Source: Burkholderiales bacterium (GTDB taxonomy: Bacteria; Pseudomonadota; Gammaproteobacteria; Burkholderiales; Burkholderiaceae_C). From it: DNA of 64,000 nt. The position numbers and the translations under genes were made by a program. The stretch covers positions 248,001-312,000 of the forward strand of contig JACPOK010000019.1 in assembly GCA_016191525.1 (NCBI GenBank). The letters run 5' to 3'. Of this stretch, positions 20,014 through 41,706 are shown in pieces. Below the pieces are notes generated by a model, which saw nothing but the letters and a program-made list of their open reading frames with translations, searched no databases and had not been told where the DNA came from. How positions within the stretch are numbered: the first letter of the stretch is position 1; each line of letters starts with the position of its first letter.

Positions 20014-20268
20014 TCAGCTGAGCGAGCCGATCAGGTCGATGTACTGCTGCATGGCATCGTCGCTGGAAGTGCCCTTCAGGCCGTTCCAGGCGTCCCACTT
20101 GGCGCGGCCCACCATGTCGCCGAAGCCGGGCTTCTTCTCGGTGTTGTCGCCGGCCGTCGATTGCTTGTACAGCCCGTAGATCTTCAGCAGCGTGCCGTTG
20201 TCGGGGCGCTCGCTGAGGTTCTTTGAATTGGCAACGGCGGATTCGAAAGCGGCTTTGAGGTCGGCCAT
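20014..20268 (-). CDS. Acyl-CoA-binding protein
   Basis: This 84-aa four-helix protein binds long-chain acyl-CoA esters and presents them to acyltransferases. The family fingerprint is clear: FESAVANSKNLSERPDNGTL, KIYGLYKQSTAGD and GRAKWDAWNGLKG, with the ligand-binding Tyr and Lys residues in KIYGLYKQ and AKWDAW. GGAG lies 8 bp before the ATG. It is divergent from the wax-ester synthase with about 100 bp between them, which suggests it supplies acyl-CoA to that enzyme and to the fatty-acyl reductase further on. ACBP genes are sporadic in bacteria, so this placement is informative. Confidence 0.95.
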   Translation of the reverse strand: MADLKAAFESAVANSKNLSERPDNGTLLKIYGLYKQSTAGDNTEKKPGFGDMVGRAKWDAWNGLKGTSSDDAMQQYIDLIGSLS

Positions 20269-20372
20269 GGAAGTGCTCCTGTGTGTTCGGGTAACTTCGC
20301 GGTATCTTACGGCGAGGCGCCGCCCCAGAATAGGGGCCGCCCCCCAACAACAAGCCCCCGATGGAGACCCGC

Positions 20373-21857
20373 ATGGTTACCCGTACCGTTGCCAGCAAAG
20401 TAGCCAAGAACGCGAAGCGAGCCGCCACCGGCATGCTGGGCATGGCCGGGGAGCGCATGACCAAGGTCGACACGGCCTGGCTGCGCATGGACTCGCCCAG
20501 CAACCTGATGATGATCGTGGGCGTGTGGACGCTCAGGCCCGGCATCAGCCATGAAGCCCTGTGCGGGCGGGTGGAGGAGCGGCTGCTCAATTACGCGCGG
20601 TTCCGCCAGCGCGTGGTGGAAGACGCGGCCGGCGCCACCTGGGTGGAAGACAAGGACTTCGACATCAACCGCCATGTGCTGCGCGAAAAGCTGCCGATGA
20701 AGGCCAGGGGCCATGAGCAGGAAGCGCTGCAGGAGCACGTGGGCGCGCTGGCCATGCAGCCGCTGGACCCGCGCCGCCCGCTGTGGCAGTTTCACCTGGT
20801 CGAGGACTACCAGGGCGGCAGCGCCCTGATCGTGCGCATCCACCATTGCATCGCCGACGGCATCGCGCTGATCTCGGTGACCATGTCGCTGGTCGACGGC
20901 GGCCTGCCGCCGCCCGAGCGCAAGCGCAAGGCCGCGCCCGAGGGCGCGGAAGACTGGATTTCCGACACGCTGATCAAGCCCTTCACCGACATGACGGTGA
21001 AGGCGCTGGGCAAGGCCGGCGACGGCGCGGTGGCCTCCATGGGCATGCTGCGCGACCCGCAAAAGGGCGTGGCCGGCACGCTGGACCTGGCCAAGCTGGC
21101 TTACCAGGTGCTGAGCGACGCGGCGGCGCTGGCCCTGATGCCCGACGACTCCAAGACGCGGCTCAAGGGCAAGCCCGGCAAGACCAAGCGCGTGGCCTGG
21201 TGCGACCCGATCCCGCTCGACGAGGTCAAGGCCGTGGGCAAGGCGCTGAACTGTTCCGTCAACGACGTGCTGCTGTCCTGCGTGGCCGGGGCCATCGGCG
21301 AATACCTCAAGGCGCTCGGCGACGACATCACGGGCCAGGAAATCCGCGCCATGATCCCGGTCAACCTGCGGCCGCTGGACCAGGCCTACAAGCTGGGCAA
21401 CCGTTTCGGGCTGGTGCCGCTGGTGCTGCCCATCGGCATGGAAAACCCGATCGAGCGGGTATACGAGGTGCGCCGCCGGATGAACGCGCTCAAGGGCAGC
21501 ACGCAGCCGCTGCTGGCCTTCGGCATGCTGGCCATCGCTGGGCTTTTGATCAAGCCGGCGCAGGAAGCCATGCTCAGCCTGTTCGGCAAGAAGACCACGG
21601 CGGTGATGACCAACGTGCCCGGCCCGCGCGACAAGCTCAAGCTGCTGGGCTCCACGCTGGAGCAGAGCATGTTCTGGGTGCCGCAGTCCGGCGACATCGG
21701 GCTGGGCGTGTCCATCCTGAGCTACGGCGGCGGCGTGCAGTTCGGCGTGATCACCGACACCACGCTGTGCCCCGAGCCGCAGAAGATCATTGACGAATTC
21801 GTGCCCGAATTCGCCAAGCTCTCGCTGGTGACCCTGATGCTGCCCTGGGGCGACTGA
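20373..21857 (+). CDS. Wax-ester synthase / diacylglycerol acyltransferase (WS/DGAT)
   Basis: This 494-aa membrane-associated enzyme esterifies long-chain alcohols or diacylglycerol with acyl-CoA, like Acinetobacter AtfA. The catalytic HHxxxDG motif is HHCIADG (~residue 151). The PLW motif (RRPLWQFHLVEDY) and the ND motif (SVNDVLLSCVAGAI) are both present, as is a C-terminal TNVPGPRDKL block. The N-terminal ~25 residues are basic and Ala-rich. ATG 20373 was preferred over ATG 20361 because GGAGA lies 5 bp upstream of it. It ends 12 bp from a convergent MarR gene. With acyl-CoA-binding protein, acyl reductase, phasin and lipase nearby, neutral-lipid storage is the likely role. Confidence 0.93.
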   Translation: MVTRTVASKVAKNAKRAATGMLGMAGERMTKVDTAWLRMDSPSNLMMIVGVWTLRPGISHEALCGRVEERLLNYARFRQRVVEDAAGATWVEDKDFDINRHVLREKLPMKARGHEQEALQEHVGALAMQPLDPRRPLWQFHLVEDYQGGSALIVRIHHCIADGIALISVTMSLVDGGLPPPERKRKAAPEGAEDWISDTLIKPFTDMTVKALGKAGDGAVASMGMLRDPQKGVAGTLDLAKLAYQVLSDAAALALMPDDSKTRLKGKPGKTKRVAWCDPIPLDEVKAVGKALNCSVNDVLLSCVAGAIGEYLKALGDDITGQEIRAMIPVNLRPLDQAYKLGNRFGLVPLVLPIGMENPIERVYEVRRRMNALKGSTQPLLAFGMLAIAGLLIKPAQEAMLSLFGKKTTAVMTNVPGPRDKLKLLGSTLEQSMFWVPQSGDIGLGVSILSYGGGVQFGVITDTTLCPEPQKIIDEFVPEFAKLSLVTLMLPWGD

Positions 21858-21869
21858 GGGCTGAAGGCC

Positions 21870-22328
21870 CTAGCCGTTGTGCGCGATGACGCGCACCGTC
21901 AGCGCCTTGTAGTCGGCCAGCGGCTTGCCGGCCAGGCAGCCGAAGAATTCGTCGTCGGCGTTCTCGATCGCCACCACGGCCTGCTCCACCACCTTGCGCC
22001 CGCGCGGCGTGAACCGCACCTCGACGGCGCGGCTGTCGGCGGCCGAGGCTTCGCGCCTGACCAGCGCGTCTTCCTCCAGCTTGCGGATAGCCTTGGAAAG
22101 CGTCATCTTGTCGATGCGCGTGTGCTCCACCAGGTGGGTCTGCGTGATGGGCTCGCCCTGCTGCTCGAACCAGCGCAGCGAGGCCAGGATGGCGTACTGC
22201 GTCTGGGTGATGCCGAAGCCGCCCAGCACGCCGGCCAGCTTGCGCTGCCACAGCGCGGTGATCTTCCACAGCAGGAAGCCCGCGCTGTCGTCCGCCTTCT
22301 CATGCTTGAACGGTGATGCTCCTGCCAT
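21870..22328 (-). CDS. MarR-family transcriptional regulator
   Basis: This is a 152-aa winged-helix regulator. The DNA-binding region shows ITQTHLVEHTRIDKMTLSKA and the wing VRREASAADSRAVEVRFTPRG, typical of MarR. It overlaps the upstream SRPBCC gene by 29 bp and is co-transcribed with it. A 14-bp palindrome (GTAAAC-CA-GTTTAC) 37 bp upstream of the SRPBCC start is a good autoregulatory operator candidate. The gene converges on the wax-ester synthase. The effector is unknown; a hydrophobic or phenolic ligand would be typical. Confidence 0.92.
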   Translation of the reverse strand: MAGASPFKHEKADDSAGFLLWKITALWQRKLAGVLGGFGITQTQYAILASLRWFEQQGEPITQTHLVEHTRIDKMTLSKAIRKLEEDALVRREASAADSRAVEVRFTPRGRKVVEQAVVAIENADDEFFGCLAGKPLADYKALTVRVIAHNG

Positions 22329-22740
22329 TGGCTGCCTTCGCTATCAGTTTGTCGGTCTGCAAGGGCAGGCCGCTGGCGATATTCTCGACCACCAGCTTGC
22401 GCCACACGAAGGACAGCGGCCCTTGCACGGTCAGCGTGGTCTTGATCTCCAGTGCATCGCCGCGCTGGATCAACTCGTGCGAGTCGACCATTTTGGCCAG
22501 CGGAAAGCGGGTGATGTCCACAAACACCGAATCGCGCTCCACCTTGGCGAGCTCGATGTTGATGTCCGGGCCACCCTTGGGCCGGAACTTGAAGCTGTTG
22601 CCGCTTTCGAATTCGCCCTCCAGCCGGGCGTAGTCGATGTCGTCCTGCCATGTGTGCCACTGGTTCACGTCGGTCCACACATCCCACACCTGCTGCGCGG
22701 TGAGGCCCTTGACTGTCTTGCTGTAGCTGCTGCTCCACAT
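22300..22740 (-). CDS. SRPBCC (START/polyketide-cyclase-like) family protein
   Basis: This 146-aa cytosolic helix-grip protein has the family opening SSYSKTVKGLTAQQVWDVWTDVNQWHTWQ, and central strands such as FKFRPKGGPDINIELAKVE. Such proteins bind hydrophobic ligands in a cavity and rarely have predictable catalytic residues. AAGGA precedes the ATG. It is the first gene of a two-gene unit with MarR, and a palindrome lies in its promoter, so it is probably under MarR control. A lipid or aromatic ligand is plausible, but no specific function can be claimed. Confidence 0.82.
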   Translation of the reverse strand: MWSSSYSKTVKGLTAQQVWDVWTDVNQWHTWQDDIDYARLEGEFESGNSFKFRPKGGPDINIELAKVERDSVFVDITRFPLAKMVDSHELIQRGDALEIKTTLTVQGPLSFVWRKLVVENIASGLPLQTDKLIAKAANGRSITVQA

Positions 22741-22776
22741 GGCGGTTGTCCTTTCGAGTCATTGAAAAACTCGATA

Positions 22777-22790
22777 GTAAACCAGTTTAC
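22777..22790. promoter_or_regulatory. Candidate MarR operator GTAAAC-CA-GTTTAC
   Basis: This perfect 6-bp inverted repeat with a 2-bp centre lies 37-50 bp upstream of the SRPBCC-MarR unit. It is AT-rich in a GC-rich background and has the size of MarR sites. It would lie over or near the promoter and could mediate autorepression. Confidence 0.6.
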
Positions 22791-22818
22791 CAATTGAGGC
22801 AAGCCCTCGGAAAGAAAT

Positions 22819-23265
22819 TCAGTCGATCTTCGTGCGCAGGGTGAGGAACTCGGCTTCGTATTCCTTGGCCAGCGAGGTCTTCTGCGCCTCGGTCAGCACC
22901 TTGCCGGCTTCCTGGAAGAACTTGTTTTCTTCCTCCTTCAGGTGGTGCTCGACTTTTTCGCAGAGTTTTTTGGCGCCGGCCATCCAGCCCGGGGCGTTGA
23001 GCTCCTGCCCTTCCAGGTCTTCCACCATCTCGTCCATCTGGTGGTGCTCGTGGATCGCGTGACGCGACGCGTTCACCGTGGAATCGTGCTCGAACAGGGG
23101 CACATAGAAACAGCGCTCTTCGGCGGTTTCGTGCGCCTTCAGCTCACGCTTGAGGTCGAGGAAGATTTTGTGGCGCTCGGGGCCGTCGGGGCTGCTGGCA
23201 AGCAATTGGGCGGCCAGCGCCCGCTGGGTTTCGTGGCTGACGCGCAGGGCTTCAAAGATGTTCAT
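22819..23265 (-). CDS. Hemerythrin HHE-domain protein
   Basis: This 148-aa four-helix protein has spaced metal-ligand candidates: His in VSHETQRALA, the HETAEERCFYVPL segment (H..xE), HAIHEHHQMDEM and a C-terminal VEHHLKEEENKFF. This His/Glu pattern is that of the cytosolic hemerythrin-like domain binding a di-iron centre, used for O2/NO sensing or iron handling. No other domain is fused. It lies on the minus strand between the SRPBCC-MarR unit and the TPR gene and probably forms its own unit. Its relation to the lipid genes is unclear. Confidence 0.9.
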   Translation of the reverse strand: MNIFEALRVSHETQRALAAQLLASSPDGPERHKIFLDLKRELKAHETAEERCFYVPLFEHDSTVNASRHAIHEHHQMDEMVEDLEGQELNAPGWMAGAKKLCEKVEHHLKEEENKFFQEAGKVLTEAQKTSLAKEYEAEFLTLRTKID

Positions 23266-23327
23266 GCCCGGCAGTGTGCGCGGGCGGCAAGCTCTGCCGT
23301 GTAGGCGGGCGCCGCGAGCGCGGGCCG

Positions 23328-24101
23328 TCAGTCTTCCAGCTCGGCCTTGGCCATCTCCACGTCCAGCCGCTCCATCGCGTCCATGGGCTTGCTGTGGGCG
23401 GCCTGCTCGTAGAGCTTGGTGGCTTCCTTCATGCGCTTGTCGCCCTCCAGCATGACCATGCCGTTGGCGTACTCGATCATGCCGATGGCTGAGCCGGGGT
23501 TGATCTTCAGCGCGTCCTGGAACAGCCTGAGGCCCGTGTCCTTCTTGGCGCCATAGGTCATGCCGCCGATCAGCGAGCCGACCTTGTCGATCACCTCCGC
23601 ATGGAAAGCCGCCAGCGCGATGTGGGCGTCGGCATGCTTGGGCTGCAGCTTGATGGTTTTCTCCAGGGCTTCCTTCACCTTGCTGCCCAGGCCTTGGGCC
23701 AGCGCCTTGGCCACGCTGATGCCCTGGCTGTAGCGGCCAAGCGCATAGGCCTGCCAGTACCAGGCGTTGGGGTTGCGGCTGTCCTCGGCCGCCTGCGCCT
23801 CGGCGCGCTGCGCCACTTCGGTGAAAAGCTCCAGCTTGGTTTTTTCCTTCTTCTCGAGGTAGTTGGCGTAGATGCAGGTGGCCTTGTTGGCCACCGTGAT
23901 GCCGCCACCGCCCGCCTTCAGGCCGGCTTCGGCCGCCTTCTGGAATTCGCCGTTATGGAACAGCGTCCAGGCCTGCAGCACGGCCGCTTCGGCGGGCAGC
24001 GGCTCAGCGTCGCCCGCGTGCAGGCGCGCCCAGTTCTTGCGGACACCGGCGCTGTCGAACTCGTAGTCGCCCAGGTGGGGGAAGGCAGTCCACTTGGCCA
24101 T
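23328..24101 (-). CDS. TPR-like repeat protein of unknown function
   Basis: This is a 257-aa cytosolic, alpha-helical protein. Tetratricopeptide-like motifs are visible at ~residues 40-60 (LQAWTLFHNGEFQKAAEAG), 110-150 (PNAWYWQAYALGRYSQG) and in the C-terminal half (NPGSAIGMIEYANGMVM, KEATKLYEQAAHSKP). GGAGACAAC immediately precedes ATG 24101, so the longer in-frame extension upstream is not used. It is the third gene of a probable patatin - TetR - TPR unit (gaps of 3 and 26 bp). Partner proteins are unknown; a role in lipid-body handling would be speculation. Confidence 0.8.
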   Translation of the reverse strand: MAKWTAFPHLGDYEFDSAGVRKNWARLHAGDAEPLPAEAAVLQAWTLFHNGEFQKAAEAGLKAGGGGITVANKATCIYANYLEKKEKTKLELFTEVAQRAEAQAAEDSRNPNAWYWQAYALGRYSQGISVAKALAQGLGSKVKEALEKTIKLQPKHADAHIALAAFHAEVIDKVGSLIGGMTYGAKKDTGLRLFQDALKINPGSAIGMIEYANGMVMLEGDKRMKEATKLYEQAAHSKPMDAMERLDVEMAKAELED

Positions 24102-24127
24102 GTTGTCTCCTTGCTTTTTTTCTCTCT

Positions 24128-24793
24128 TCAGCCTTCGCTGCTTCCACTGTACGCGCCCACCAGCCCCAGCAGGTGCATGCGCTGGCCCTGTTCCAGGTAG
24201 GGCACCAGCAGGTTCAGCACGTGGTGGGCGCCGCGCAGCAGCGCCATCTGCGCGCTTTCGGGCTCCAGCGCGCGGCGCGGGTCGCGCACGTATTCGTAGC
24301 TGAGCCAGTAGGTCAGCACCACCACCATGCTGGTGGCGGTGGCTTCCACCTCGCGCGAATCGATGCTCACCGCGCCGGAGCGGCTCATGCCGTCCAGCAG
24401 GGCCTTGACGGCCCGGGTCTTGTTCTTCAGCACCCACTGGAAGTGCGTCTCCAGCCGCCGGTTCTTGGACAGCAGGTCGTTCAGGTCGCGGTACAGGAAG
24501 CGGTATTGCCAGATCAGCTCGAACAGCGAGTGCATGAAGAACCAGGCGTCCTCCACGTCGCGCACGCCGTCGCTGGCGTTCAGCAGTTCGGACAGCGACC
24601 GTTCATAGCGGTCGAACAGCGAATTGATCAGCTCGTCCTTGGCCGGGTAGTGGTAATACAGGTTACCCGGGCTGATGTTCAGCTCGGCCGAGATCAGCGT
24701 GGTGGACACGTTGGGCTCGCCGAAGCGGTTGAACAGGTCCAGCGTCACCTCGAGGATGCGCTCGGCGGTGCGGCGCGGGGCTTTCTTGACCAT
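24128..24793 (-). CDS. TetR/AcrR-family transcriptional regulator
   Basis: This is a 221-aa regulator. The N-terminal helix-turn-helix reads ILEVTLDLFNRFGEPNVSTT then ISAELNISPGNLYYHYPAKD, a textbook TetR pattern; the rest is a helical ligand-binding domain (for example AWFFMHSLFELIWQYRFLY). It starts 3 bp after the patatin gene stop and so is co-transcribed with it, which suggests lipid or acyl-CoA responsive control of the lipase unit. A palindromic cluster upstream of patatin (26077-26096) is a possible binding site. Similar TetR proteins flank lipid-metabolism genes in betaproteobacteria. Confidence 0.92.
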   Translation of the reverse strand: MVKKAPRRTAERILEVTLDLFNRFGEPNVSTTLISAELNISPGNLYYHYPAKDELINSLFDRYERSLSELLNASDGVRDVEDAWFFMHSLFELIWQYRFLYRDLNDLLSKNRRLETHFQWVLKNKTRAVKALLDGMSRSGAVSIDSREVEATATSMVVVLTYWLSYEYVRDPRRALEPESAQMALLRGAHHVLNLLVPYLEQGQRMHLLGLVGAYSGSSEG

Positions 24794-24796
24794 GGC

Positions 24797-26041
24797 TCAG
24801 GCGGCACGGCGCGTGGCCGGCCCGAGGATGTGGCCCAGGTCGTCCATCACCTCCTGCAGGGAAGAGATGGCCTGGCCGATGCGGGTGCGAGGCCTGGGCG
24901 GGGCCACCAAGTGGCGGCGCGGGTCGTCCAGCAGCTCCATGTTCAGGCTGATGCCGTGGCGTTCCAGCTTCTGCGCCAGGCTGGTGCGGCGCGAGCGCAG
25001 CATGGCGCGGGTCTGCTGGTAGGCGTGCTCGGCCAGCTGCCGGCGCCTGCCGTAGCCGAAGGTGTTGGCCAGGTACAGCTCGGGATCGCGGTGGTCGGGC
25101 TCGATCAGCACGATGTCGGTTTCAGGGTAGGCGCGCTCGTAATGCTTCATGCCCAGCTCCATGCGCGAATGGATCATGGAGCGGAAGGTCTGGCTGAGCA
25201 CCGCGGGCAGGCCGCCGTCCACGATGCGCGGGATGCTGCGCTTTTCTTCCGGCAGGCCGCGGCGCATGACCCGCGCGGTGTGCGATTCGGTGGAGTTGAA
25301 GGGAACCAGCGGGTTCAGGCACAGCATGAGGTCCACGCCGTCGTCCAGCGCCACCGAGGCGTGCATCGTCTTTTTCAGCGCACCGTCGACAAAATAGTGC
25401 TCGTCGATCTCCACCGGCGGAAAGAGGCCGGGCAGGGCGGAACTGGCCTGCACCGCTTTCGAGATGGGCACATGGTCCCAGCCCGGCCGCCCGAAGGGCG
25501 CGGCCTCGCCGGTGTCCAGGTTGGTGGCGACCAGGGTCAGGCGCGACTTCAGCTGGCGGAAGTCATTGGTGCGGCCCTCGCGGGTGAACAGGGCTGCCAG
25601 CCGCTTGTCCACTTCCGCATTGGAGAAGATGCCGGTGGGCAGGCCGGCACCCAGGCGCTCCAGCGAATGCATGACCGATTTGCGCCCCAGCGTGGCGCGC
25701 CACAGCGCGGAGGCGGCCAGGCCGGGGAACATGATGCCGCGCCGGGCGAATTCGCTGTAGGCAGGAACCATCAGCCAGGCCGGGTCGAAGATTTCGCCGC
25801 CTTGCGTGCTGCTTTCGATGAAGGAGGCGCACAGCTCGCGCGGCGTCATCCCGTTGGCCAGGCCCGCGGCGATGAAACCGCCCGCGGAGACGCCGACATA
25901 GTGGTCAAGCCGGGTGAAATCCAGGCCATCCAGCGACTCGTCCAGCGCGCACAGCGCACCGATTTCATAGATCGCCCCCAGCGGGCCGCCGCCCGCAAGC
26001 GCCAGTGCGATTTTGGGGGCCGGTTTTTTGCTGGGTCTCAT
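24797..26041 (-). CDS. Patatin-like phospholipase / lipid hydrolase
   Basis: This is a 414-aa patatin-fold acyl hydrolase with a Ser-Asp dyad. The oxyanion-hole loop is LALAGGGPLGAIYEIG, the nucleophile elbow GVSAGGF (GxSxG) and the catalytic Asp VDGALKK. The start ATG at 26041 gives a normal N-terminus (MRPSKKPAPKIALALAGGG); the longer frame upstream lacks support and would cross the terminator of the phasin gene. No signal peptide is seen, so it acts in the cytosol or on the inner face of membranes. Beside TetR and close to a phasin and a wax-ester synthase, it is a candidate for mobilising or remodelling stored lipid. Confidence 0.92.
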   Translation of the reverse strand: MRPSKKPAPKIALALAGGGPLGAIYEIGALCALDESLDGLDFTRLDHYVGVSAGGFIAAGLANGMTPRELCASFIESSTQGGEIFDPAWLMVPAYSEFARRGIMFPGLAASALWRATLGRKSVMHSLERLGAGLPTGIFSNAEVDKRLAALFTREGRTNDFRQLKSRLTLVATNLDTGEAAPFGRPGWDHVPISKAVQASSALPGLFPPVEIDEHYFVDGALKKTMHASVALDDGVDLMLCLNPLVPFNSTESHTARVMRRGLPEEKRSIPRIVDGGLPAVLSQTFRSMIHSRMELGMKHYERAYPETDIVLIEPDHRDPELYLANTFGYGRRRQLAEHAYQQTRAMLRSRRTSLAQKLERHGISLNMELLDDPRRHLVAPPRPRTRIGQAISSLQEVMDDLGHILGPATRRAA

Positions 26042-26076
26042 GAAAGGGCAGTGTAGGGGGCTTGATTGGCGCAGCG

Positions 26077-26096
26077 TGCTGCATTGCAGCAATGCA
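26077..26096. promoter_or_regulatory. Nested palindromes upstream of patatin, PhaR-like CTGC-N3-GCAG
   Basis: Two perfect inverted repeats overlap here: TGCTGC-ATT-GCAGCA (26077-26091) and TGCATTGC-A-GCAATGCA (26080-26096). The first contains CTGC-N3-GCAG, the form described for Rhodobacter PhaR sites. They lie 36-55 bp upstream of the patatin start, a promoter position. The local TetR protein is an alternative ligand. Confidence 0.5.
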
Positions 26097-26098
26097 TG

Positions 26099-26121
26099 AA
26101 AAAAGGCGCCGAAGCGCCTTT
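26099..26121 (-). terminator. Rho-independent terminator of the phasin gene
   Basis: Minus-strand stem AAGGCGC-TTCG-GCGCCTT followed by a run of T (A6 on the plus strand at 26099-26104). It lies 21 bp past the phasin stop and closes that gene before the patatin promoter region. Confidence 0.88.
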
Positions 26122-26141
26122 GCAGGGGAGCGGCTGCGGCC

Positions 26142-26624
26142 TCAAGCGGACTTGCGCGCAGCGCGCTTGGCGGGGGCCTTCTTCGCTGCGGGGCGCGGGG
26201 CCGTGCCACCCTTGGCGCTGAGCCTGGCCACATTGGCGTTCAGCTCGTCGATGCGCTTGATCAGCACGTCGATGTCCTTGGCCGAGGGCACGCCCAGCTT
26301 GTTCAGCGCCTTGGAAACACGTTCCTCGAAAATGTTTTCCAGCTTGTCCCACTGGCCCGAGGCCTTGGACGAGATGTCGGTGGCCATGTTGGCCATGCGG
26401 CTGGTGGCCTCGGAAATCTTTTCCTCGGCCGCGGCCTGGGTCTTGCGCTGGATGGAAGTGCCTTCGCGCACCAGCGCCTCGAACACCGTGCCGCCTTCTT
26501 CCTGCGCCTTGGCGAATGCGCCCAGGCCGGCCAGCCAGATCTGGCTGGCGGATTCCTTGACGGTGCCGGACAGCTGGGCGCCCGTCTTCTTTTCTTCGCT
26601 CATCTTGTTCAGTTTCTTGACCAT
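26142..26624 (-). CDS. PhaI/PhaF-type phasin (granule-associated protein)
   Basis: This 160-aa protein of the poly(hydroxyalkanoate) granule-associated family has an amphipathic helical middle (SQIWLAGLGAFAKAQEEGGT, EALVREGTSIQRKTQ), a leucine-zipper-like segment (DVLIKRIDELNANVARL) and a Lys/Ala/Pro-rich basic tail (AAKKAPAKRAARKSA) as in PhaF. Such proteins coat hydrophobic inclusions and link them to the nucleoid. AGGAGG sits 7 bp before ATG 26624, so the longer in-frame N-terminus is rejected. A strong terminator follows. Near an acyl reductase and wax-ester synthase it may coat wax-ester or mixed inclusions, though a classical PHA role is equally possible. Confidence 0.88.
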   Translation of the reverse strand: MVKKLNKMSEEKKTGAQLSGTVKESASQIWLAGLGAFAKAQEEGGTVFEALVREGTSIQRKTQAAAEEKISEATSRMANMATDISSKASGQWDKLENIFEERVSKALNKLGVPSAKDIDVLIKRIDELNANVARLSAKGGTAPRPAAKKAPAKRAARKSA

Positions 26625-26712
26625 GGTGGCCTCCTGTATCGGGGATGCGTGCACTTTAAGCCCTGCGCGGGGCGGCGGGTTAGGCATGGCCTCCTAAATA
26701 ACTAGGCGGTGA

Positions 26713-26790
26713 ACCCTAGCCGCTGCCGAGCCGCCTCAAAGCGGCTCCGCCCCCTCGGGGGGCAGCGAACGAAGTGAGCGTGGGGGCCGT
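26713..26790. repeat. Structured intergenic repeat with three stems
   Basis: An outer stem CGCTGCC/GGCAGCG (26721-26727 with 26761-26767) encloses GAGCCGC-CTCAAA-GCGGCTC (26728-26747) and a C-run/G-run hairpin (26750-26761), giving a three-way-junction layout. The tail AACGAAGTGAGCGTGGGGG follows. I recall similar GGGGGCAGCGAACGAAGTGAGCGTGGGGG strings between genes in Comamonadaceae, but could not check. It lies between the divergent phasin and acyl-reductase genes. Confidence 0.6.
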
Positions 26791-26880
26791 TTCGCCGCGC
26801 GCGGGTTTGTGCTGAATGAGCGCGCCCTGGCTTTGGGCAAGAATTGCCGCAAAGCAAATCCAATCCCTGGAGGTTCCCCC

Positions 26881-28866
26881 ATGCAGTATTTCGTCACCGG
26901 CGCGACCGGTTTCATCGGCAAGCGCCTGGTCAAGAAGCTGCTGGAGCGCAAGGGCTCGGTGGTGCATTTCCTCATCCGCAAGGAGAGCGAAGGCAAGGTG
27001 GCCGGCCTGCGCGAATACTGGGGCGCCAGCGCCTCGCGCGCCGTTCCCGTGTTCGGCGACATCACCACCAAAAAGCTGGGCGTGGCGGCGGAGGACATCA
27101 AGAAGCTCAAGGGCCAAGTCGACCACTTCTACCACCTGGCCGCCGTCTATGACCTGGGCGCGGACGAGGAAAGCCAGGTTGCCGTCAACATCGACGGCAC
27201 GCGCAACACCGTGGAATTCGCCAAGGCCATCGACGCCGGGCATTTCCACCACGTGTCGTCCATCGCCGCCGCCGGCCTGTACGAAGGCGTGTTCCGGGAA
27301 GACATGTTCGAGGAAGCCGAGAACTACGACCACCCCTATTTCCGCACCAAGCACGAGAGCGAGAAGATCGTGCGCAAGGAATGCAAGGGGCCGTGGTCGG
27401 TGTACCGGCCGGCCATGGTGGTGGGCGACAGCCAGACCGGCGAGATGGACAAGATCGACGGCCCGTATTACTTCTTCAAGCTGATCCAGCGCATGCGCCA
27501 GCTGCTGCCGCCCTGGATGCCGGCTGTGGGGCTGGAGGGCGGCCGCGTCAACATCGTGCCGGTGGACTTCGTGGTCGACGCGCTGGACTACCTCAGCCAC
27601 AAGGCCGACATCAACAAGCGCTGCTTTCACCTGGTGGACCCGGTGGGTTACCGTGTGGGCGACGTGCTGGACATCTTCAGCCGCGCGGCCCATGCGCCCA
27701 AGATGAACCTGTTCATCAACGCCGCGCTGCTGGGCTTTATCCCCAAGAGCGTCAAGAAGGGCCTGATGGCGATCGCGCCGGTGCGCCGCGTGCGCAATGC
27801 GGTGCTCAAGGACCTGGGCCTGCCCGAGGACATGCTCACTTTCGTCAACTACCCGACGCGCTTCGACTGCCGCGACACGCTGGCCGCGCTCAAAGGGTCG
27901 GGGATTGAATGCCCCAACCTGAAGGACTACGCCTGGCGCCTGTGGGACTACTGGGAGCGGCACCTGGACCCCGACCTGCACATCGACCGGTCGCTCAAGG
28001 GCACGGTGGGCGGCAAGGTGGTGCTGGTAACGGGCGGCTCCTCGGGCATCGGCCTGGCCGCAGCGCACAAGTTTGCCGAGGCGGGCGCCGTCACCATCAT
28101 CTGCGGGCGCGACCAGGAAAAGCTGGACGAGGCCTGCAAGGAGGCCAAGGCCAAGGGCTACCAGTTCGTGGCCTACGCCGCCGACATCGCCGACATGGCC
28201 GACTGCGACCGCTTCACCCAGCTGCTGGTGCAGAACCACGGCGGCGTGGACTTCCTGATCAATAACGCGGGCCGCTCCATCCGCCGCGCGATCGAGTCCA
28301 GCTACGACCGCTTTCACGACTACGAGCGCACCATGCAGCTGAACTACTTCGGCTGCCTGCGCGTGACCATGGGTCTGCTGCCCGGCATGGCGGCCAAGCG
28401 CAAGGGCCACGTGGTCAACATCAGCTCGATCGGCGTGCTGACCAACGCGCCGCGCTTTTCCGCCTATGTGGCCAGCAAGGCCGCGCTGGACGCCTGGACG
28501 CGCTGCGCCTCCAGCGAGTTCGCGGACGTGGGCATCAGCTTCACTACCATCAACATGCCACTGGTGCGCACCCCCATGATCGCGCCCACCGGCCTGTACA
28601 ACAACGTGCCCACGCTGTCGCCAGAGGAAGCGGCCGACATGATCGCCCAGGCCTGCATCTTCAAGCCGGTGCGCATCGCCACCCGGCTGGGCATCACGGG
28701 CCAGCTGCTGCACGCGCTGCTGCCGCGCATCGCCCAGATCGCGATGAACACCAGCTTCCGCATGTTCCCCGACTCTTCCGCCGCCAAGGGCGACAAGAGC
28801 GCCAAGCCGCAGCTGTCGCCCGAGGCGGTGGCCTTGCAGCAGATGATGCAGGGCATCCACTTCTGA
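26881..28866 (+). CDS. Fatty-acyl-CoA/ACP reductase (alcohol-forming, two-domain SDR)
   Basis: This 661-aa protein has the same length and layout as the Marinobacter acyl reductase Maqu_2507, which reduces acyl-CoA through the aldehyde to the fatty alcohol. The N-terminal extended-SDR domain has the NADP loop [13 protein letters not shown] and [10 protein letters not shown] (YxxxK). The C-terminal classical SDR domain has [34 protein letters not shown] and [13 protein letters not shown]. Recalled blocks shared with Maqu_2507 include [32 protein letters not shown] and [22 protein letters not shown] precedes ATG 26881. It supplies the alcohol half of wax esters to the WS/DGAT at 20.4 kb. It is not merely a dehydrogenase of unknown type; confidence in the family is high. 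Confidence 0.92.
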
Positions 28867-28899: not shown

Positions 28900-28939
28900 C
28901 TCCGGCTGTTTGCCCCGTGGCGGGCTGGAGACATTTCCC

Positions 28940-30007
28940 ATGATCCTCGTGACCGGGGGCGCCGGTTTTATCGGCTCCAATTTCGTTCTCGACTGGCTGG
29001 CCGGCAGTGATGAGCCGGTCGTCAACCTCGACAAGCTGACCTACGCGGGCAACCCGGAGAACCTGGCTTCCCTGGAGGGCGACCCGCGCCACATTTTCGT
29101 GCAGGGCGACATCGCCGACACCGACGCCGTGAACCGCCTGCTGGCGCTGCAGAAGCCGCGCGCCATCGTCAATTTCGCGGCCGAATCGCATGTGGACCGC
29201 TCCATCCATGGGCCCGAGGCCTTCATCCAGACCAACATCGTGGGCACCTTCCGCCTACTCGAGTCGGTGCGCAAGTACTGGAGCGAGCTGCAGGGCGATG
29301 CGAAGGCCGGCTTCCGGTTCCTGCATGTGTCCACCGACGAGGTCTACGGTTCGCTCTCGCCCGCAGAGGCGGCCTTTACCGAGTCGCGCCCGTTCGAGCC
29401 CAACAGCCCCTATTCGGCCAGCAAGGCCTCCAGCGACCATCTGGTGCGCGCGTACCACCACACCTACGGGCTGCCGGTGCTCACCACGAATTGCTCCAAC
29501 AATTACGGGCCGTATCACTTCCCCGAAAAACTCATTCCGCTGATGATCGTCAACGCGCTGGCCGGCAAGCCGCTGCCGATCTACGGTGACGGGCAGCAGG
29601 TGCGCGACTGGCTCTACGTGAAAGACCATTGCAGCGCCATCCGCCGCGTGATGGAAAAGGGCATTGCCGGCCAGACCTACAACATCGGCGGCTGGAACGA
29701 AAAGCCCAACCTGGAAATCGTGCACACGGTGTGCGCGCTGCTGGACGAACTGCGCCCCCGCGTTGACGGCAAGAGCTACCGCGAGCAGATCACTTACGTG
29801 AAGGACCGGCCAGGGCACGACCGCCGCTACGCGATCGACGCGCGCAAGATCGAGCGCGAGCTGGGCTGGAAGCCCGCCGAGACTTTCGACAGCGGCATCC
29901 GCAAGACGGTGCAGTGGTACCTGGCCAACCCGGAATGGGTGGCCCATGTGCAAAGCGGCTCCTACCGCGACTGGCTGCAGACCAACTACGCCGCCCGCGC
30001 GGCCTGA
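28940..30007 (+). CDS. rmlB: dTDP-glucose 4,6-dehydratase
   Basis: This 355-aa extended SDR enzyme converts dTDP-glucose to dTDP-4-keto-6-deoxyglucose, step two of dTDP-L-rhamnose synthesis. Motifs are [13 protein letters not shown] (NAD loop), [11 protein letters not shown], the catalytic STDEVYGSL (Asp-Glu pair) and [14 protein letters not shown] (YxxxK), followed by [19 protein letters not shown] lies 9 bp before ATG 28940. It heads the rmlBDAC operon (gaps 9 and 5 bp, then a 4-bp overlap). Confidence 0.97.
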
Positions 30008-32365: not shown

Positions 32366-33145
32366 ATGCGGATTCAAGATATTTGGCGAATGTTCGCACC
32401 TGCTAAAGCAGAGCCCGTTGTTGCATCGACAAAACGATGGGATGGGGAGAGTGATGACGACTATGGATATCGGCTGGCCTGCCAGTCGATATCGTCCGAG
32501 CAGTGGCCTCAAGGCGATCCATTCGGTCTTTTTGTGGAGTTGTCAGAAAAATTCGATAGGCCCCGGATCCTCGAATTGGGTACTCGACGTGCCTTGGCTG
32601 AGCTTTCCACCCGTCATCAGCGCCATTTCCCGCATGCGGGGGAATATCTTGGCACCGACATCGAGCATGGGCCCGACGTCGACTTTGTGGCGGACGTCCA
32701 TCGCCTCAGCCAAACAACCGGCGAAGAGGCGTTTGACGCCATCCTCACGGAGTCGGGGTTCGAGCACTTCAAGTATCCGCATTTAGCCGCGCACGAAATC
32801 ATGAAGGCACTACGCGTCAACGGGCTCGTGTTCGTGCAGACCCACCAGACATTCCCAATTCATGCGGTGCCTTACGACTATTGCCGTTTTTCGACGGATG
32901 CGCTGCGCTCTCTCTTCGGTCGGGCGATGGGGATGGAGGTGATCGCGTCCGCATATGCGTCACCGGCCGCCATTTACTCACGCGTCGATCCTTTGGGCAG
33001 GCGGTTTCCCGCGTTTTTGCACGTCAACGTGCTGGCTCGAAAGGTCGCAGCAACGCCCGCATGTTATGAGTTTGAGTTCGACTGTGATTTTCCTGGCGAG
33101 TCGCTCGCAGCTCAACTTTCGGGCAAACGCATGCGGTCCTTATAG
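32366..33145 (+). CDS. Class I SAM-dependent methyltransferase-like protein
   Basis: This 259-aa protein has a Methyltransf_11-like core: motif I RILELGTRRALAELS (weak, lacking the usual GxG), an acidic second strand GTDIEHGPDVDFVADVH, then FDAILTESGFEHFKYPHLAA and KALRVNGLVFVQTHQTFP. Loss of the Gly-rich loop leaves SAM binding uncertain. It lies 14 bp after rmlC, in the same direction, and has lower G+C than the rml genes, typical of variable O-antigen genes. It may methylate a sugar of the surface glycan or act on a glycan precursor. Confidence 0.72.
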   Translation: MRIQDIWRMFAPAKAEPVVASTKRWDGESDDDYGYRLACQSISSEQWPQGDPFGLFVELSEKFDRPRILELGTRRALAELSTRHQRHFPHAGEYLGTDIEHGPDVDFVADVHRLSQTTGEEAFDAILTESGFEHFKYPHLAAHEIMKALRVNGLVFVQTHQTFPIHAVPYDYCRFSTDALRSLFGRAMGMEVIASAYASPAAIYSRVDPLGRRFPAFLHVNVLARKVAATPACYEFEFDCDFPGESLAAQLSGKRMRSL

Positions 33146-33156
33146 AGGAAGAAAAG

Positions 33157-34077
33157 ATGTTGGGACAACTCTCCAGGCTCTGGCGCAAGGCAACAGTAGT
33201 TTCGCCGCCCCCGCTGACCGCGGTCAGCGCCCAGCCTGCGGCCAGTCGGCGCGATCGCCTCCTTGCACTTTTCGACAGTACGGGGCTCGGGTTGGAGGTT
33301 GGCGCCAGCTTCAATCCGCTCCTGCCCAAGAAGGACGGCTACAACATTGAGATCCTCGATCACCTAAGCGCGGAAGACCTTGTGGGCAAGTATCAGGGCG
33401 CCACGGGGGCTGACGTATCCCGAATCGAACCGGTTGACTATGTGTCGTCTGGTGGCTCGCTCTTCGACGCCATCGGCAAGCCGGGCCGCTTCGACTACAT
33501 CGTGGCTTCGCATGTGATCGAGCACACCGTTGACCTGCTAGGTTTCTTGCAGGACTGCGAGCGCCTGCTGACGCCCACAGGCGTACTCGTGCTGGCTGTG
33601 CCCGACAAGCGCTATTCCTTTGACGTGATGCGGCCGCTGACTTCCACTGGTGACGTGCTGCAAGCCAACCTGGACAAGCGAACCCGCCACAGCTTGGGCG
33701 CGTTGTTTGACGAGGTGGCGTATAACTCGCTGCGTTCCGGGGCGCCGGGGTGGGCCCCCGGCAGCGATGGTCCGCTGACTTTCGTCTGTGACCTGAGCCG
33801 CGCCAAACAGATTTTCGAAGAGACGCAGGGCAACCAGCACTTCCACGACATCCACGCCTGGCAGTTCAGCCCTTCGAGTTTTCGCCTGATCGTCAATGAC
33901 CTGCATGAAATCGGCTACCTGGGCCTGCGCGAGCAGCGTTTCGACGATGACTGCGGGGGGGAATTTTTCATTACCCTGTCTCGCCAAGGGACGGGTCCCA
34001 GTGCCTCGCGCCTTGAACTGGCGCAGCGCGCGCTGGCCGAAACGGCGCTCATAAGCACTCGTGTCTCGTCGGGGTAG
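33157..34077 (+). CDS. SAM-dependent methyltransferase of the polysaccharide locus
   Basis: This is a 306-aa class I methyltransferase. Motif I is GLGLEVGASFNPLLPK, followed by YNIEILDHLSAEDL, the catalytic-domain segment FDYIVASHVIEHTVDLLGFL and LTPTGVLVLAVPDKRYSFD. It is a clear paralogue of the gene at 40808-41692 (same HVIEHT/RVLQHT, PDKRYSFD/LDKRFAFD and AWQFSPSSFRLIVNDL/AWQFTPSSVRLIINDL blocks). A decayed copy of its 3' end lies at 36401-36636. AGGAAG precedes the ATG. It probably methylates a glycan residue or a carrier-linked intermediate. Confidence 0.85.
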   Translation: MLGQLSRLWRKATVVSPPPLTAVSAQPAASRRDRLLALFDSTGLGLEVGASFNPLLPKKDGYNIEILDHLSAEDLVGKYQGATGADVSRIEPVDYVSSGGSLFDAIGKPGRFDYIVASHVIEHTVDLLGFLQDCERLLTPTGVLVLAVPDKRYSFDVMRPLTSTGDVLQANLDKRTRHSLGALFDEVAYNSLRSGAPGWAPGSDGPLTFVCDLSRAKQIFEETQGNQHFHDIHAWQFSPSSFRLIVNDLHEIGYLGLREQRFDDDCGGEFFITLSRQGTGPSASRLELAQRALAETALISTRVSSG

Positions 34078-34224
34078 GGGTGTCGATTTGCCTCTGACAC
34101 GTAGAAGCCACCTGTCTCGGTGCATCGAAGAACTTCAAGAACCCCCGCGACCCGCCACGCCCGGAAGGTTGCAGACGCCGTCGGCGACCATCAATGTGCC
34201 GAAGCCTTTGGCCGGATTAGGCGA

Positions 34225-34246
34225 TATTTCAACAATTATTGAAATA
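34225..34246. repeat. AT-rich perfect inverted repeat TATTTCAA-(6)-TTGAAATA
   Basis: This 8-bp stem with a 6-bp AT-rich centre (CAATTA) is unusual in this GC-rich sequence. It lies at the edge of the anomalous secreted-protein insert. It could be an operator, a terminator-like hairpin or a recombination site; nothing in the sequence decides. Confidence 0.5.
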
Positions 34247-34422
34247 ATGATGTATGGCCGGTAAAAAGCGCCGAAAAGACGCCACGGCACCCTGCGCAAG
34301 GAATCTCGGACGCAGGCGTGGCGCGGCTTGCGGGCACAAAAAGGCCCGCGAGGCGCATGGATAGTGCGTGAGGGTTTCGTGAACCTTTAAAACCCGCAGC
34401 GGCCCGAGGTGTGGCGGTCAAA

Positions 34423-34439
34423 GCCCGCGAGGGCCGGGC
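34423..34439 (-). terminator. Possible terminator of the secreted-protein gene
   Basis: On the minus strand GCCCG-(7)-CGGGC is followed by TTT, 15 bp past the stop codon at 34454. The short T run makes this a weak call. Confidence 0.4.
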
Positions 34440-34453
34440 CTGAACGCTTCCTG

Positions 34454-35941
34454 CTAGTTTTCGTATGCCGCCTTCATATTGAGGATGACGTTCTCAACAC
34501 TCATCGTTCCGTAAGGCGAACTGATGACTTCGTCGTAGCGATAGGGAAACACCACGTATTTGAACGTGTAGACCTTTTCGGAACTAGGTCGCATGTTGAA
34601 TCGCGGGTTGTTGTTGAATTTTATTGATCTGAAGTACGCCGATTCCAATATTTGGTATGCGTAGTTGCCCGCGAATGTCGCTACGTCAGCGCGGAAGTTG
34701 TTCTTGTAAAACCAGGCGATGGTGTATACGTCGTTTGAATACCCTCTGACGTTCTCAAAAGAAATCCAACTCACGTCCTCATGTCGAAAGTCGCTGGCGC
34801 CTTCGTCGATCCCTAGTTGAGACACGGTAAGCGATGCGGTGCCCGTCTTGTCCGGTATGTCATGCTGGTAGATGGCTCCCGCTCGGCGCACGGTGTAGCG
34901 TCTGAAGTCTGGCTTGAAATAGAAGGTCGGTATTTCGATGGCTGCGTTTGTGAGAGTCGTCGCACCAGTGTTCTTGACCGTCAAATCAACCTCGACATAA
35001 TTATTGGATGGGGTGACAACTTGGCTGAGTTTTACAACGTCGCCCGGATTGAGTGGGCCGGGGTAGTTTGCCCCGTAGTCAAAACTTCGCATCGCGTGCT
35101 CGCCGATCTCTATGCTGGATGAAGCAGAGGAACAACTGTTGTTCAGCGTGCCGTCGCACTTAACGAAGGTGACTGTTGGACCCGACCCAGTGTTGTAGCC
35201 CGAGGCCGTAGTCCCGTTGTGAGAACACGTATTGCCAGTTTGTGTGGGATTGAAAAATCCTTGATTCCCACAGGGGTTGGTCATGAATACGGTATCGGTA
35301 CGCAGGGCAATTTGCAGCGCTTCACCCGAGTGGGGATGAATGGCGTTGTTGAAAAACGAGTTCCCGCCAAGAGTTGCCCTTAGGTTGTAGAACTCATAGA
35401 ACGCACCTCCATTGCGATCAAGTTTGAATGCATAGGTCGGCTTGCTCACAGTCACAAGACTGTTTGTGGTTTTTGGGTAGTACCACTCCGCAGCGGAAAA
35501 GTCCGAGAGCAAATAATCTTGATATGCAGAAGCTTGGGTCTGGTTGTCCTCGTAGGCATATTTGGTGCAGTCGGCTGTGACTTTCCAAAGGCGTAGGAGG
35601 ATTTGATTGGGGCTCAGTTGATCAATAGGAATCCGCATATGGCAGTACCCTTGATTGATCGTCGAACTGAGGCTGTTAGTCGGCGTGCCCAATACGGTGT
35701 CCCAGGCGGCATTCAGGAAGCACTGGCCTTGGTAGTCGGCTGTGCTGCCGATTGAATAGATCTGAGCGCTCACGCCCTTTTGCGGGCACGCGCTTCCGTA
35801 GTTAGCGCTTATCTGCACGCCCGTGCTACGGACCGCCGAACCGAAGTAGTTGACGCCTACGAGTGACTGCTGTGCAAAGGCGCATGTCGCGAAAAACGCG
35901 AACACCAAGGCAACGGCCCGACGAAAGTTTAGAGAACTCAT
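34454..35941 (-). CDS. Large secreted protein of unknown function, low G+C
   Basis: This 495-aa protein has a Sec signal peptide (residues 1-23, cleavage near CAFAQQS). The mature part is rich in Tyr, Asn, Ser, Thr and Phe with several Cys (for example GSACPQKG, KCDGTLNNSCSS), the style of an extracellular beta-sheet protein, but I recognise no family. A middle stretch (NPGDVVKLSQVVTPSNNYVE, VDLTVKNTGATTLTNAAIEI) looks like an Ig/CARDB-type fold. Base composition is far lower in G+C than neighbours, with rare codons such as ATA and AAT, a sign of transfer. It lies 10 bp after a small lipoprotein gene, probably one operon, inside the polysaccharide locus. Confidence 0.8.
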   Translation of the reverse strand: MSSLNFRRAVALVFAFFATCAFAQQSLVGVNYFGSAVRSTGVQISANYGSACPQKGVSAQIYSIGSTADYQGQCFLNAAWDTVLGTPTNSLSSTINQGYCHMRIPIDQLSPNQILLRLWKVTADCTKYAYEDNQTQASAYQDYLLSDFSAAEWYYPKTTNSLVTVSKPTYAFKLDRNGGAFYEFYNLRATLGGNSFFNNAIHPHSGEALQIALRTDTVFMTNPCGNQGFFNPTQTGNTCSHNGTTASGYNTGSGPTVTFVKCDGTLNNSCSSASSSIEIGEHAMRSFDYGANYPGPLNPGDVVKLSQVVTPSNNYVEVDLTVKNTGATTLTNAAIEIPTFYFKPDFRRYTVRRAGAIYQHDIPDKTGTASLTVSQLGIDEGASDFRHEDVSWISFENVRGYSNDVYTIAWFYKNNFRADVATFAGNYAYQILESAYFRSIKFNNNPRFNMRPSSEKVYTFKYVVFPYRYDEVISSPYGTMSVENVILNMKAAYEN

Positions 35942-35951
35942 GATTTCCCCC

Positions 35952-36134
35952 TTAGTTCGACGGCGAGGTTTTGGACGGAGCTTCCTTCACTACGATAGGA
36001 GCCATCGCAGGAGGAGGAGTCGCTCGCTGGGCTTGGGAACTGCTCGGCGGGTTATCAGATCCGCCGCAGCCCGTGAATAGCAAGCAAACGCCGATGCTTG
36101 CGATGGCGACACGCGAACGCGTGGAATATTTCAT
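35952..36134 (-). CDS. Small lipoprotein
   Basis: This is a 60-aa predicted lipoprotein with a short signal peptide and lipobox (LLFTGC, Cys about residue 22), then GGSDNPPSSSQ and a Pro/Ala/Ser-rich disordered tail. ATG 36134 is chosen over a GTG at 36140 because GGAGG lies 5 bp upstream. That Shine-Dalgarno is the 3' arm of a small hairpin. It is co-directional with the large secreted protein 10 bp away, so the pair may act together at the cell surface. No function is assigned. Confidence 0.72.
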   Translation of the reverse strand: MKYSTRSRVAIASIGVCLLFTGCGGSDNPPSSSQAQRATPPPAMAPIVVKEAPSKTSPSN

Positions 36135-36139
36135 AAACA

Positions 36140-36154
36140 CCTCCCTTTAGGAGG
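36140..36154 (-). promoter_or_regulatory. Hairpin that would sequester the lipoprotein ribosome-binding site
   Basis: On the minus strand CCTCC-TAAAG-GGAGG forms a 5-bp stem whose 3' arm is the Shine-Dalgarno, 5 bp before ATG. This could throttle translation or act as a crude thermosensor; coincidence of a purine-rich site is also possible. Confidence 0.45.
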
Positions 36155-36400
36155 CACGGTTATGACTTGTTACCTAAATCCAAACTGCGTCGTTCTGTAA
36201 AAGTCTTGTCGCTCTGCTAACGACAGGAGGGCTCAATACGTCGTTCACGTCACAGTGCGGGTCGGACCCAATTCCAGTGCGCAGCCCGTGGCGCGCGCGC
36301 TGGTTACCAAGGCTTACTGTTCGGGATTGGCTGAGCTTGCAATTCCAACGCGGTGCAATACTCGGGCATCTAGAGAGTCGGACGGAATGTCCGGGGCGCC

Positions 36401-36636
36401 AACTACGATTGGACGAACCCCGGCTCCAGCGCCTTCGAGCTTCCGCCGATCGTCAACGACCTGCGCGAAATCGGGTATCTGGGCCCGCGCGAGCAGGCAT
36501 TCCACATCGACTGCGGCAGCGATTCTTCGTCACCCTGTCCCGCCAGGGCGCGCGTCCCACGGTTTCGCGCCTGGAGATGGCGCAGCGCGCACTGGCCGAG
36601 ACCGCGCTGATCAGCACGCTGACCACGGCCGGATAG
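36401..36636 (+). pseudogene. 3' remnant of a SAM methyltransferase gene
   Basis: Read from 36401, the frame gives IVNDLREIGYLGPREQAFHI (36449-36508), close to IVNDLHEIGYLGLREQRF of the intact gene at 33157. A one-base deletion near 36521 shifts the frame, after which FFVTLSRQGARPTVSRLEMA and QRALAETALIST run to the TAG at 36634. The rest of the gene is missing or unrecognisable. Two explanations fit: an old tandem copy cut by insertion of the low-G+C pair, or a partial duplication. It has no independent start and is taken as non-functional. Confidence 0.85.
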
Positions 36637-36641
36637 CGGTT

Positions 36642-36658
36642 GCTATAAAAAATGTAGC
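36642..36658. repeat. GCTAT-(7)-GTAGC short palindromic repeat
   Basis: GCTAT-AAAAAAT-GTAGC, 6 bp after the methyltransferase remnant stop. This is the third copy of the 17-bp 5-7-5 element (others at 14319 and 19992). Confidence 0.6.
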
Positions 36659-36710
36659 GACTCACGCACAACTGGTGCGCCTTACAGGCCTTTTTTCCTC
36701 TTAAAACCAG

Positions 36711-38434: not shown

Positions 38435-38446
38435 CTTTCGTCGCGT

Positions 38447-39610: not shown

Positions 39611-39619
39611 TTTTTTGCT

Positions 39620-40783: not shown

Positions 40784-40807
40784 GTTTCTTGCGCCGTCCT
40801 GCTGTCC

Positions 40808-41692: not shown

Positions 41693-41706
41693 TGCTTCCT
41701 TTGAGG

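Follow-up and report, generated by a model that had tools for sequence, protein, structure and literature searches.

What does a betaproteobacterium do with a reductase, an ester synthase, a granule coat protein and a lipase encoded side by side? The question is raised by positions 20014-28866 of a 64,000-nucleotide stretch (the window, as we call the whole of it) from a Burkholderiales bacterium whose genome falls in the genus of Ramlibacter ginsenosidimutans, as that genus is drawn by the genome collection. A first-pass annotation had read the block as one compact system for storing wax esters, made up of an acyl-CoA-binding protein (ACBP), a wax ester synthase/diacylglycerol acyltransferase (WS/DGAT), an alcohol-forming fatty acyl-CoA reductase (FAR), a phasin, a patatin-like lipase, and MarR and TetR regulators. 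All of these gene families are encoded where they had been placed, each above its curated cut-off, and the catalytic motifs are intact. Judged from the sequence, the block is probably a storage system for wax ester and triacylglycerol in this Ramlibacter-group bacterium, with triacylglycerol probably a further product beside wax ester.

The curated-family matches of the two synthetic enzymes, with their intact motifs, are one reason for this reading. The WS/DGAT gene (20361-21857, plus strand; TIGR02946, PF03007 and PF06974) reached 364 bits against a cut-off of 310 for TIGR02946 in the profile search, and its product of 498 aa as called carries HHCIADG (HHxxxDG), PLW, NDVL and NVPGP. HHxxxDG was present in 102/102 loci with a near-full-length WS/DGAT relative; this and the other motif counts, as well as the TetR-TPR adjacency described below, pool two overlapping locus sets, in which some genomes are counted twice. 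The start of the gene is uncertain because more distant relatives align no earlier than about residue 23-30. The FAR gene (26881-28866, plus strand) encodes a two-domain protein that scored 1020 bits against a cut-off of 549 for NF005539, an NCBIfam model itself named just SDR family oxidoreductase, and that unites NAD_binding_4 (PF07993) and adh_short (PF00106) in one chain. It bears GATGFIG at residue 7 and YFRTK at 153, the candidate catalytic YxxxK of the N-terminal half, followed by GGSSGIG at 385 and YVASK at 529 in the C-terminal half; this pattern of a Gly motif and a candidate YxxxK in each half occurred in 105/105 near-full-length relatives. The start at 26881, giving 661 aa as in most listed relatives, appears better placed than 26809, and the enzyme is expected to be alcohol-forming. 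If the proteins do what their families do, ACBP would hold long-chain acyl-CoA, FAR would reduce part of it to fatty alcohol, and WS/DGAT would join the alcohol (or diacylglycerol) to acyl-CoA. The Marinobacter pathway (Maqu_2507 and Maqu_2220 in M. aquaeolei, together with WS/DGAT) is described as running through the same reduction to alcohol and subsequent esterification, and PMC6308636 reports that Marinobacter was left with almost no wax esters once both of its reductase homologues had been deleted, which supports the storage reading. We liken the window's FAR to these reductases by family; the identity figure of 59% belongs to Burkholderiales relatives in PMC10351704.

As a side observation, a second WS/DGAT homologue lies far from the block in the window's genome (G000:C30:339253-339711, locus L002), and distant second copies occur in many family genomes among those listed. 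At L217 and L232 the FAR match next to phasin falls into two or more pieces, possibly from duplication or broken copies.

The remaining parts of the predicted pathway are small or accessory proteins. ACBP (20014-20268, minus strand; 84 aa) matched PF00887 with 102 bits. The phasin (26142-26624, minus strand, probably starting at 26624; 160 aa) scored 165 bits against a cut-off of 28.8 for PF05597 and 108 against 94.7 for TIGR01837, and it ends in a Lys/Ala/Pro-rich tail. Lys, Ala, Pro and Arg make up on average 76% of the last 24 residues at 103 loci with FAR in view and 64% at 52 loci without it. In domain and tail it resembles PhaF and PhaI, the PF05597 phasins of medium-chain-length polyhydroxyalkanoate (mcl-PHA) granules, PhaF being the one with the Lys/Ala/Pro-rich tail; the window's phasin gene differs in standing beside FAR and patatin and not beside a PHA synthase. 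The patatin-like lipase/phospholipase (24797-26041, minus strand, probably starting at 26041; 414 aa; PF01734, 103 bits) has GVSAG (GXSXG) and the DGA dyad, kept in 78/78 loci with a near-full-length relative, and was found in 46 of the 73 FAR loci. Their neighbourhood suggests that the phasin would coat the growing droplet, its basic tail perhaps tying the droplet to the nucleoid, and that the patatin would hydrolyse the stored ester on demand.

The idea that these genes act as one system is backed by their distribution. Among 399 family genomes, WS/DGAT was found in 188 and FAR in 179; 170 had both, 18 WS/DGAT only, nine FAR only and 202 neither. The thresholds of this count (1e-60 for WS/DGAT and 1e-90 for FAR) were stricter than those of a second count over 150 family genomes; in the larger one, G050 enters as a FAR genome through its C-terminal half alone and G166 through a comparable score, and certain distant WS/DGAT are scored as present. 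FAR is thus seldom without WS/DGAT (170/179), and WS/DGAT is mostly accompanied by FAR (170/188), with a Fisher value of 2e-78 that ignores shared ancestry. Seven of the nine FAR-only genomes are less than 90% complete, and G031 and G040 carry a piece of WS/DGAT at a contig edge. The 150-genome count gave 77 with WS/DGAT, 73 with FAR, 71 with both and 71 with neither; it omits short phasin matches (G071, for example) and the C-terminal-only FAR match in G050, takes G040 and G031 as having WS/DGAT from the contig-edge pieces, and takes two G094 pieces as one.

Co-occurrence also holds on finer and wider scales. At least four genera (g1, g16, g53 and g129) contain both-gene members and neither-gene members, when genomes with a genus code among those listed are compared, and this too speaks for the storage reading. 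WS/DGAT varies within g38 and g59, where FAR was not found, and in g32 one FAR genome shows WS/DGAT only as a fragment at a contig edge. Outside the family, a sample of 299 genomes of the phylum held nine genomes with a FAR 53-60% identical, and WS/DGAT was present in all nine, again in keeping with a joint role; in one of them, G632, a weak phasin match, WS/DGAT and FAR all fall within about 6.3 kb. Correlations of protein distances (0.61 for FAR and WS/DGAT, 0.78 for phasin and TetR) were moderate and were set aside because they include no control for shared ancestry.

Gene order gives a further argument for the same reading. The first-pass annotation had proposed comparing it across Comamonadaceae genomes, and what emerged is two near-fixed pairs within a block that is, as a whole, a minority arrangement. 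Phasin and FAR are divergent neighbours at most 640 bp apart in 70 of the 73 FAR genomes; the exceptions are G143, where they lie 3.1 kb apart, and G011 and G094, where they are on different contigs. ACBP is divergent to WS/DGAT, at most 700 bp away, in 73 of the 74 loci with room. Both pairs are seen in the window, where ACBP (minus) diverges from WS/DGAT (plus) across 92 bp (20269-20360) and the phasin gene (minus) diverges from FAR (plus) across 26625-26880. The order ACBP-WS/DGAT-HHE-TPR-TetR-patatin-phasin-FAR, in which HHE stands for a hemerythrin gene and TPR for a tetratricopeptide repeat protein, is common to Caenimonas soli, R. albus, R. cellulosilyticus and R. alkalitolerans (named-species loci were the best 80 of 595 matches), and WS/DGAT and FAR are 4.0 to 7.1 kb apart, by coordinates, in all five both-gene genomes of the Ramlibacter group. 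Since the full block turned up in Ramlibacter, in Caenimonas and in some related genomes, the picture of a single compact module is right for the Ramlibacter group and certain relatives and not for the whole family.

The two divergent regions were also inspected for regulatory sites. Two dyads were read by eye between phasin and FAR in the window's genome, TTAGG-N8-CCTAA at 26680-26697 and CTAGG-N8-CCTAG at 26702-26719, and the 73-sequence consensus of this region contains an aligned block, CTAG.G.g....ctCTA, that resembles their CTA-type half-sites; the dyads (26680-26719) are a possible regulator site. Conserved blocks are present in the ACBP/WS-DGAT region as well, and palindrome sampling gave different motifs in the two regions. 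The word GGTTAGC, tried as a shared element, was exact in 5/73 sequences versus 3/73 shuffled ones and in 2/75 versus 1/75; since it is no commoner than in the shuffles, we do not claim a common regulon.

How the wax genes came to stand here can be approached through loci that lack them. R. ginsenosidimutans keeps phasin-TetR-TPR-HHE-ACBP in the order of the block; neither FAR nor a WS/DGAT orthologue was found in its genome, and patatin was not found at the locus. By topology alone, a tree of 109 loci groups it with R. cellulosilyticus and R. alkalitolerans. ACBP-TPR-TetR-phasin is kept in five Variovorax loci and in Xenophilus; a sixth Variovorax locus ends short of ACBP, and Acidovorax soli retains TPR-TetR-phasin. 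Among 23 phasin loci from genomes without FAR and WS/DGAT (read out of 30 such tabulated genomes; for 20 of the 23 the downstream stretch was no longer than about 4.6 kb), TetR stood beside phasin in 19, ACBP was nearby in nine and TPR in seven; patatin was at none of them, as judged from the locus stretches and without a genome-wide patatin search. The set of phasin, TetR, TPR and ACBP can therefore stay, wholly or in part, where WS/DGAT, patatin and FAR are missing, and the wax genes occupy separate positions in a core that is able to exist alone.

Trees were used to count changes in gene content. They were built from neighbouring genes rather than as a species tree and do not separate gain from loss. 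A tree of TetR, phasin, TPR and ACBP from 88 genomes implied one change of WS/DGAT and four of FAR, which would leave the co-occurrence with very few events behind it; its ACBP and TetR copies, however, came from a mixture of two loci. A 71-row tree with clearer states implied seven changes of FAR, and four of WS/DGAT over its 53-locus subset; the subset alone gave six for FAR, four for WS/DGAT and eight for patatin. The 16 FAR changes on the tree of 109 phasin loci were discarded, because contig ends and a tally restricted to FAR at the locus itself had raised the number. A single clade of the FAR-less rows in the 71-row tree was rejected (p-AU 6e-14), the group having been named after the trees had been seen.

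However, several observations weigh against the storage reading or limit it. Co-inheritance is not strict, as FAR is missing in 18/188 WS/DGAT genomes and seven genera (g12, g83, g98, g107, g121, g125 and g127) mix both-gene and WS/DGAT-only genomes. The fixed compact neighbourhood suggested at first did not extend to the family, in which WS/DGAT and FAR are usually apart; they lie within 10 kb in just 14 of the 73 FAR genomes, or 14 of the 31 with both on one contig. Outside the family FAR is mostly unlinked to phasin. PF05597 was on the same contig in three of the nine genomes, within about 10 kb (G632, G675 and G589, with a strong match only in G675), on other contigs in five and absent from one (G429). 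The phasin-FAR pairing is therefore mainly a feature of this family, in this sample. No operator shared by the two divergent intergenic regions was found by palindrome sampling and the one word tried. Independent changes are few, from four to seven for FAR and from one to four for WS/DGAT depending on the rows and genes used, and a sign test on independent pairs was not significant and was without power. On the 53-locus tree, two to three pairs changed the same way, none the opposite way and two to three showed no difference; on the 88-genome tree the numbers were zero to one, none and two to three. We therefore claim co-changes that are repeated but few.

Three other explanations can be weighed against these data. 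The main store might be triacylglycerol, with WS/DGAT acting mostly as a diacylglycerol acyltransferase and FAR bleeding off acyl-CoA or making alcohol for another use. WS/DGAT enzymes are frequently bifunctional, as is generally known, and the 18 of 188 genomes with WS/DGAT and without FAR, which could make triacylglycerol only, fit this account, as do G009, G027 and G113, where patatin and phasin still stand beside WS/DGAT. What makes it unlikely is that the reductase so seldom occurs without the synthase, since 170 of the 179 FAR genomes have both.

In another account, the phasin and patatin serve polyhydroxybutyrate (PHB) granules and the wax genes are mere neighbours. PF05597 is named for PHA granules, FAR is missing in 36 of the 109 tabulated phasin genomes, and PhaC is present in 148/150 family genomes. 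Yet PhaC and PhaP are near universal (PhaP likewise in 148/150, 147 above the cut-off), whereas the PF05597 phasin occurs in 110/150 genomes and in all 73 FAR genomes. In the window's genome the PHB genes stand on other contigs (PhaC on C39, PhaP on C30) than the phasin gene, which lies on C8 of this 5.0 Mb genome; this is another reason for assigning the phasin to the wax genes, and patatin is at none of the 23 loci described above (loci only). We regard this explanation as improbable. That the genes are close by chance and have no joint action would agree with the full block being a minority arrangement; it is hard to reconcile with two near-fixed divergent pairs and with co-occurrence across 399 genomes, and appears very improbable. 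A wax-ester/triacylglycerol storage system remains the explanation that we prefer.

Beyond the synthetic enzymes, the core holds a regulator and a possible carrier. The TetR-family gene (24128-24793, minus strand; PF13972 type, 145 bits) is present at the locus both with and without the wax genes and is the best candidate for a local regulator, likely acyl-responsive. It adjoins the gene of the 257-aa TPR protein (23328-24101, minus strand), one of three block genes missing from the first-pass list. TPR was found in 126 of 160 TetR loci, some of which are truncated at contig ends, and in all 126 the two genes are adjacent on the same strand. In some genomes the pair neighbours WS/DGAT, in others phasin; over the stretches read, TetR was in either place in 55/69 genomes and TPR in 50/69. 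The overall fold of the TPR protein matches the lipid-transfer TPR domain of PTPIP51 (RMDN3), a bacterial sterol transporter and TatT, with identities of 14-19%; it differs from the first in being bacterial, and it has no obvious signal peptide by eye. Against PF21033 (RMDN/PTPIP51 type) the window's protein scored 14.6 bits, below the cut-off of 26.7. PF21033 matched eight of 16 TPR members at E <=0.1 (the window's included; best 2e-4), general TPR models matched more members, and a newer precomputed Pfam version has PF21033 on the 120 rows listed, read by eye. In a profile search against solved structures, designed TPR proteins came first (E 9e-6), and 7cc7 was at E 0.09. The protein is thus a candidate lipid-binding TPR of the RMDN/PTPIP51 type, a possible lipid carrier by its neighbourhood, with the fold pointing more clearly in this direction than the weak sequence similarity. 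Storage-lipid synthesis may have been laid onto an older granule-service core of phasin, TetR, TPR and ACBP, with the TPR protein as a cytosolic, PTPIP51-like transfer protein that would bring phospholipid or acyl lipid to the droplet surface; this is a tentative proposal, which we put forward as doubtful.

The minus-strand genes run phasin, patatin, TetR, TPR, hemerythrin, SRPBCC and MarR, with gaps of 100, 3, 26, 62, 78 and -29 bp. The hemerythrin HHE protein (22819-23265, minus strand; PF01814), recognised also by synteny, and the SRPBCC protein (22300-22740, minus strand; PF10604, 32 bits; polyketide cyclase/lipid transport fold) are the other two genes not listed at first. The former is kept in Ramlibacter and a few relatives, and it weakly resembles the ribosome-binding persister proteins of the PA2171 family (44 bits, far below the cut-off of 190). 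MarR (21870-22328, minus strand; PF12802, 43 bits) had been counted as a member of the system; no relative of it or of SRPBCC was found beyond the window's own locus among L001-L277 at the threshold used, and MarR looks incidental to the block. The MarR and SRPBCC genes (21870-22740) overlap, and a recent insertion is possible. After FAR follows an rmlB/rfbB-like gene (28910-30007, plus strand; named by likeness, without a family search), a flanking marker outside the system, found after FAR in 17/73 FAR loci and beside phasin in 14/23 FAR-less loci. Past the rfb-like genes, GC falls to 0.53-0.60 in much of 32366-42010, where methyltransferase and WsaF-type glycosyltransferase domains are encoded; this is probably a variable locus for surface polysaccharide.

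So complete a neighbourhood had been presented as known mainly from gammaproteobacteria and actinobacteria, as scattered genes, and this novelty for betaproteobacteria was not borne out. The main text of PMC10351704 describes Burkholderiales ws/dgat genes, from relatives of Rhodoferax ferrireducens and Ideonella, beside ACBP in six metagenomic sequences, two scaffolds carrying a short-chain dehydrogenase/reductase 58.8-59.2% identical to MAQU_2507 together with a PHA-system protein, and another with a phasin. It treats storage of triacylglycerol and wax esters in betaproteobacteria as a potential. Those scaffolds share with the window a ws/dgat beside ACBP, a FAR-like reductase and a phasin nearby; the ws/dgat section reports no FAR-phasin pair and no family-wide counts, and its main text makes no mention of TetR, TPR, MarR or patatin. 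One sentence of PMC2667194 (2008) names Polaromonas among gram-negatives accumulating triacylglycerol or wax esters, with a single atf gene and no data there. Since both sources already report it for Burkholderiales or Polaromonas, the wax-ester reading is not new in kind; new here are the co-inheritance counts, the phasin-FAR pair and the TPR protein with a PTPIP51-type fold. In Marinobacter, wax ester is induced by low nitrogen according to PMC6308636 and PMC9113324. Our search of openly readable papers, a weak negative because subscription papers were outside its scope, returned no wax-ester measurement in this family.

If the storage reading is right, about 43% of the sampled family genomes (170/399, drawn evenly and not by abundance) would be capable of storing wax esters or triacylglycerol, and a phasin-type coat would be dedicated to neutral lipid. 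R. ginsenosidimutans, without the synthesis genes and with their neighbours kept, would be a natural comparison strain. The most interesting point is the phasin-TetR-TPR-ACBP core with its lipid-carrier-like TPR protein, through which the supply of lipid to a droplet in bacteria can be tested directly; were it a counterpart of PTPIP51, bacteria would have a dedicated protein for supplying lipid droplets.

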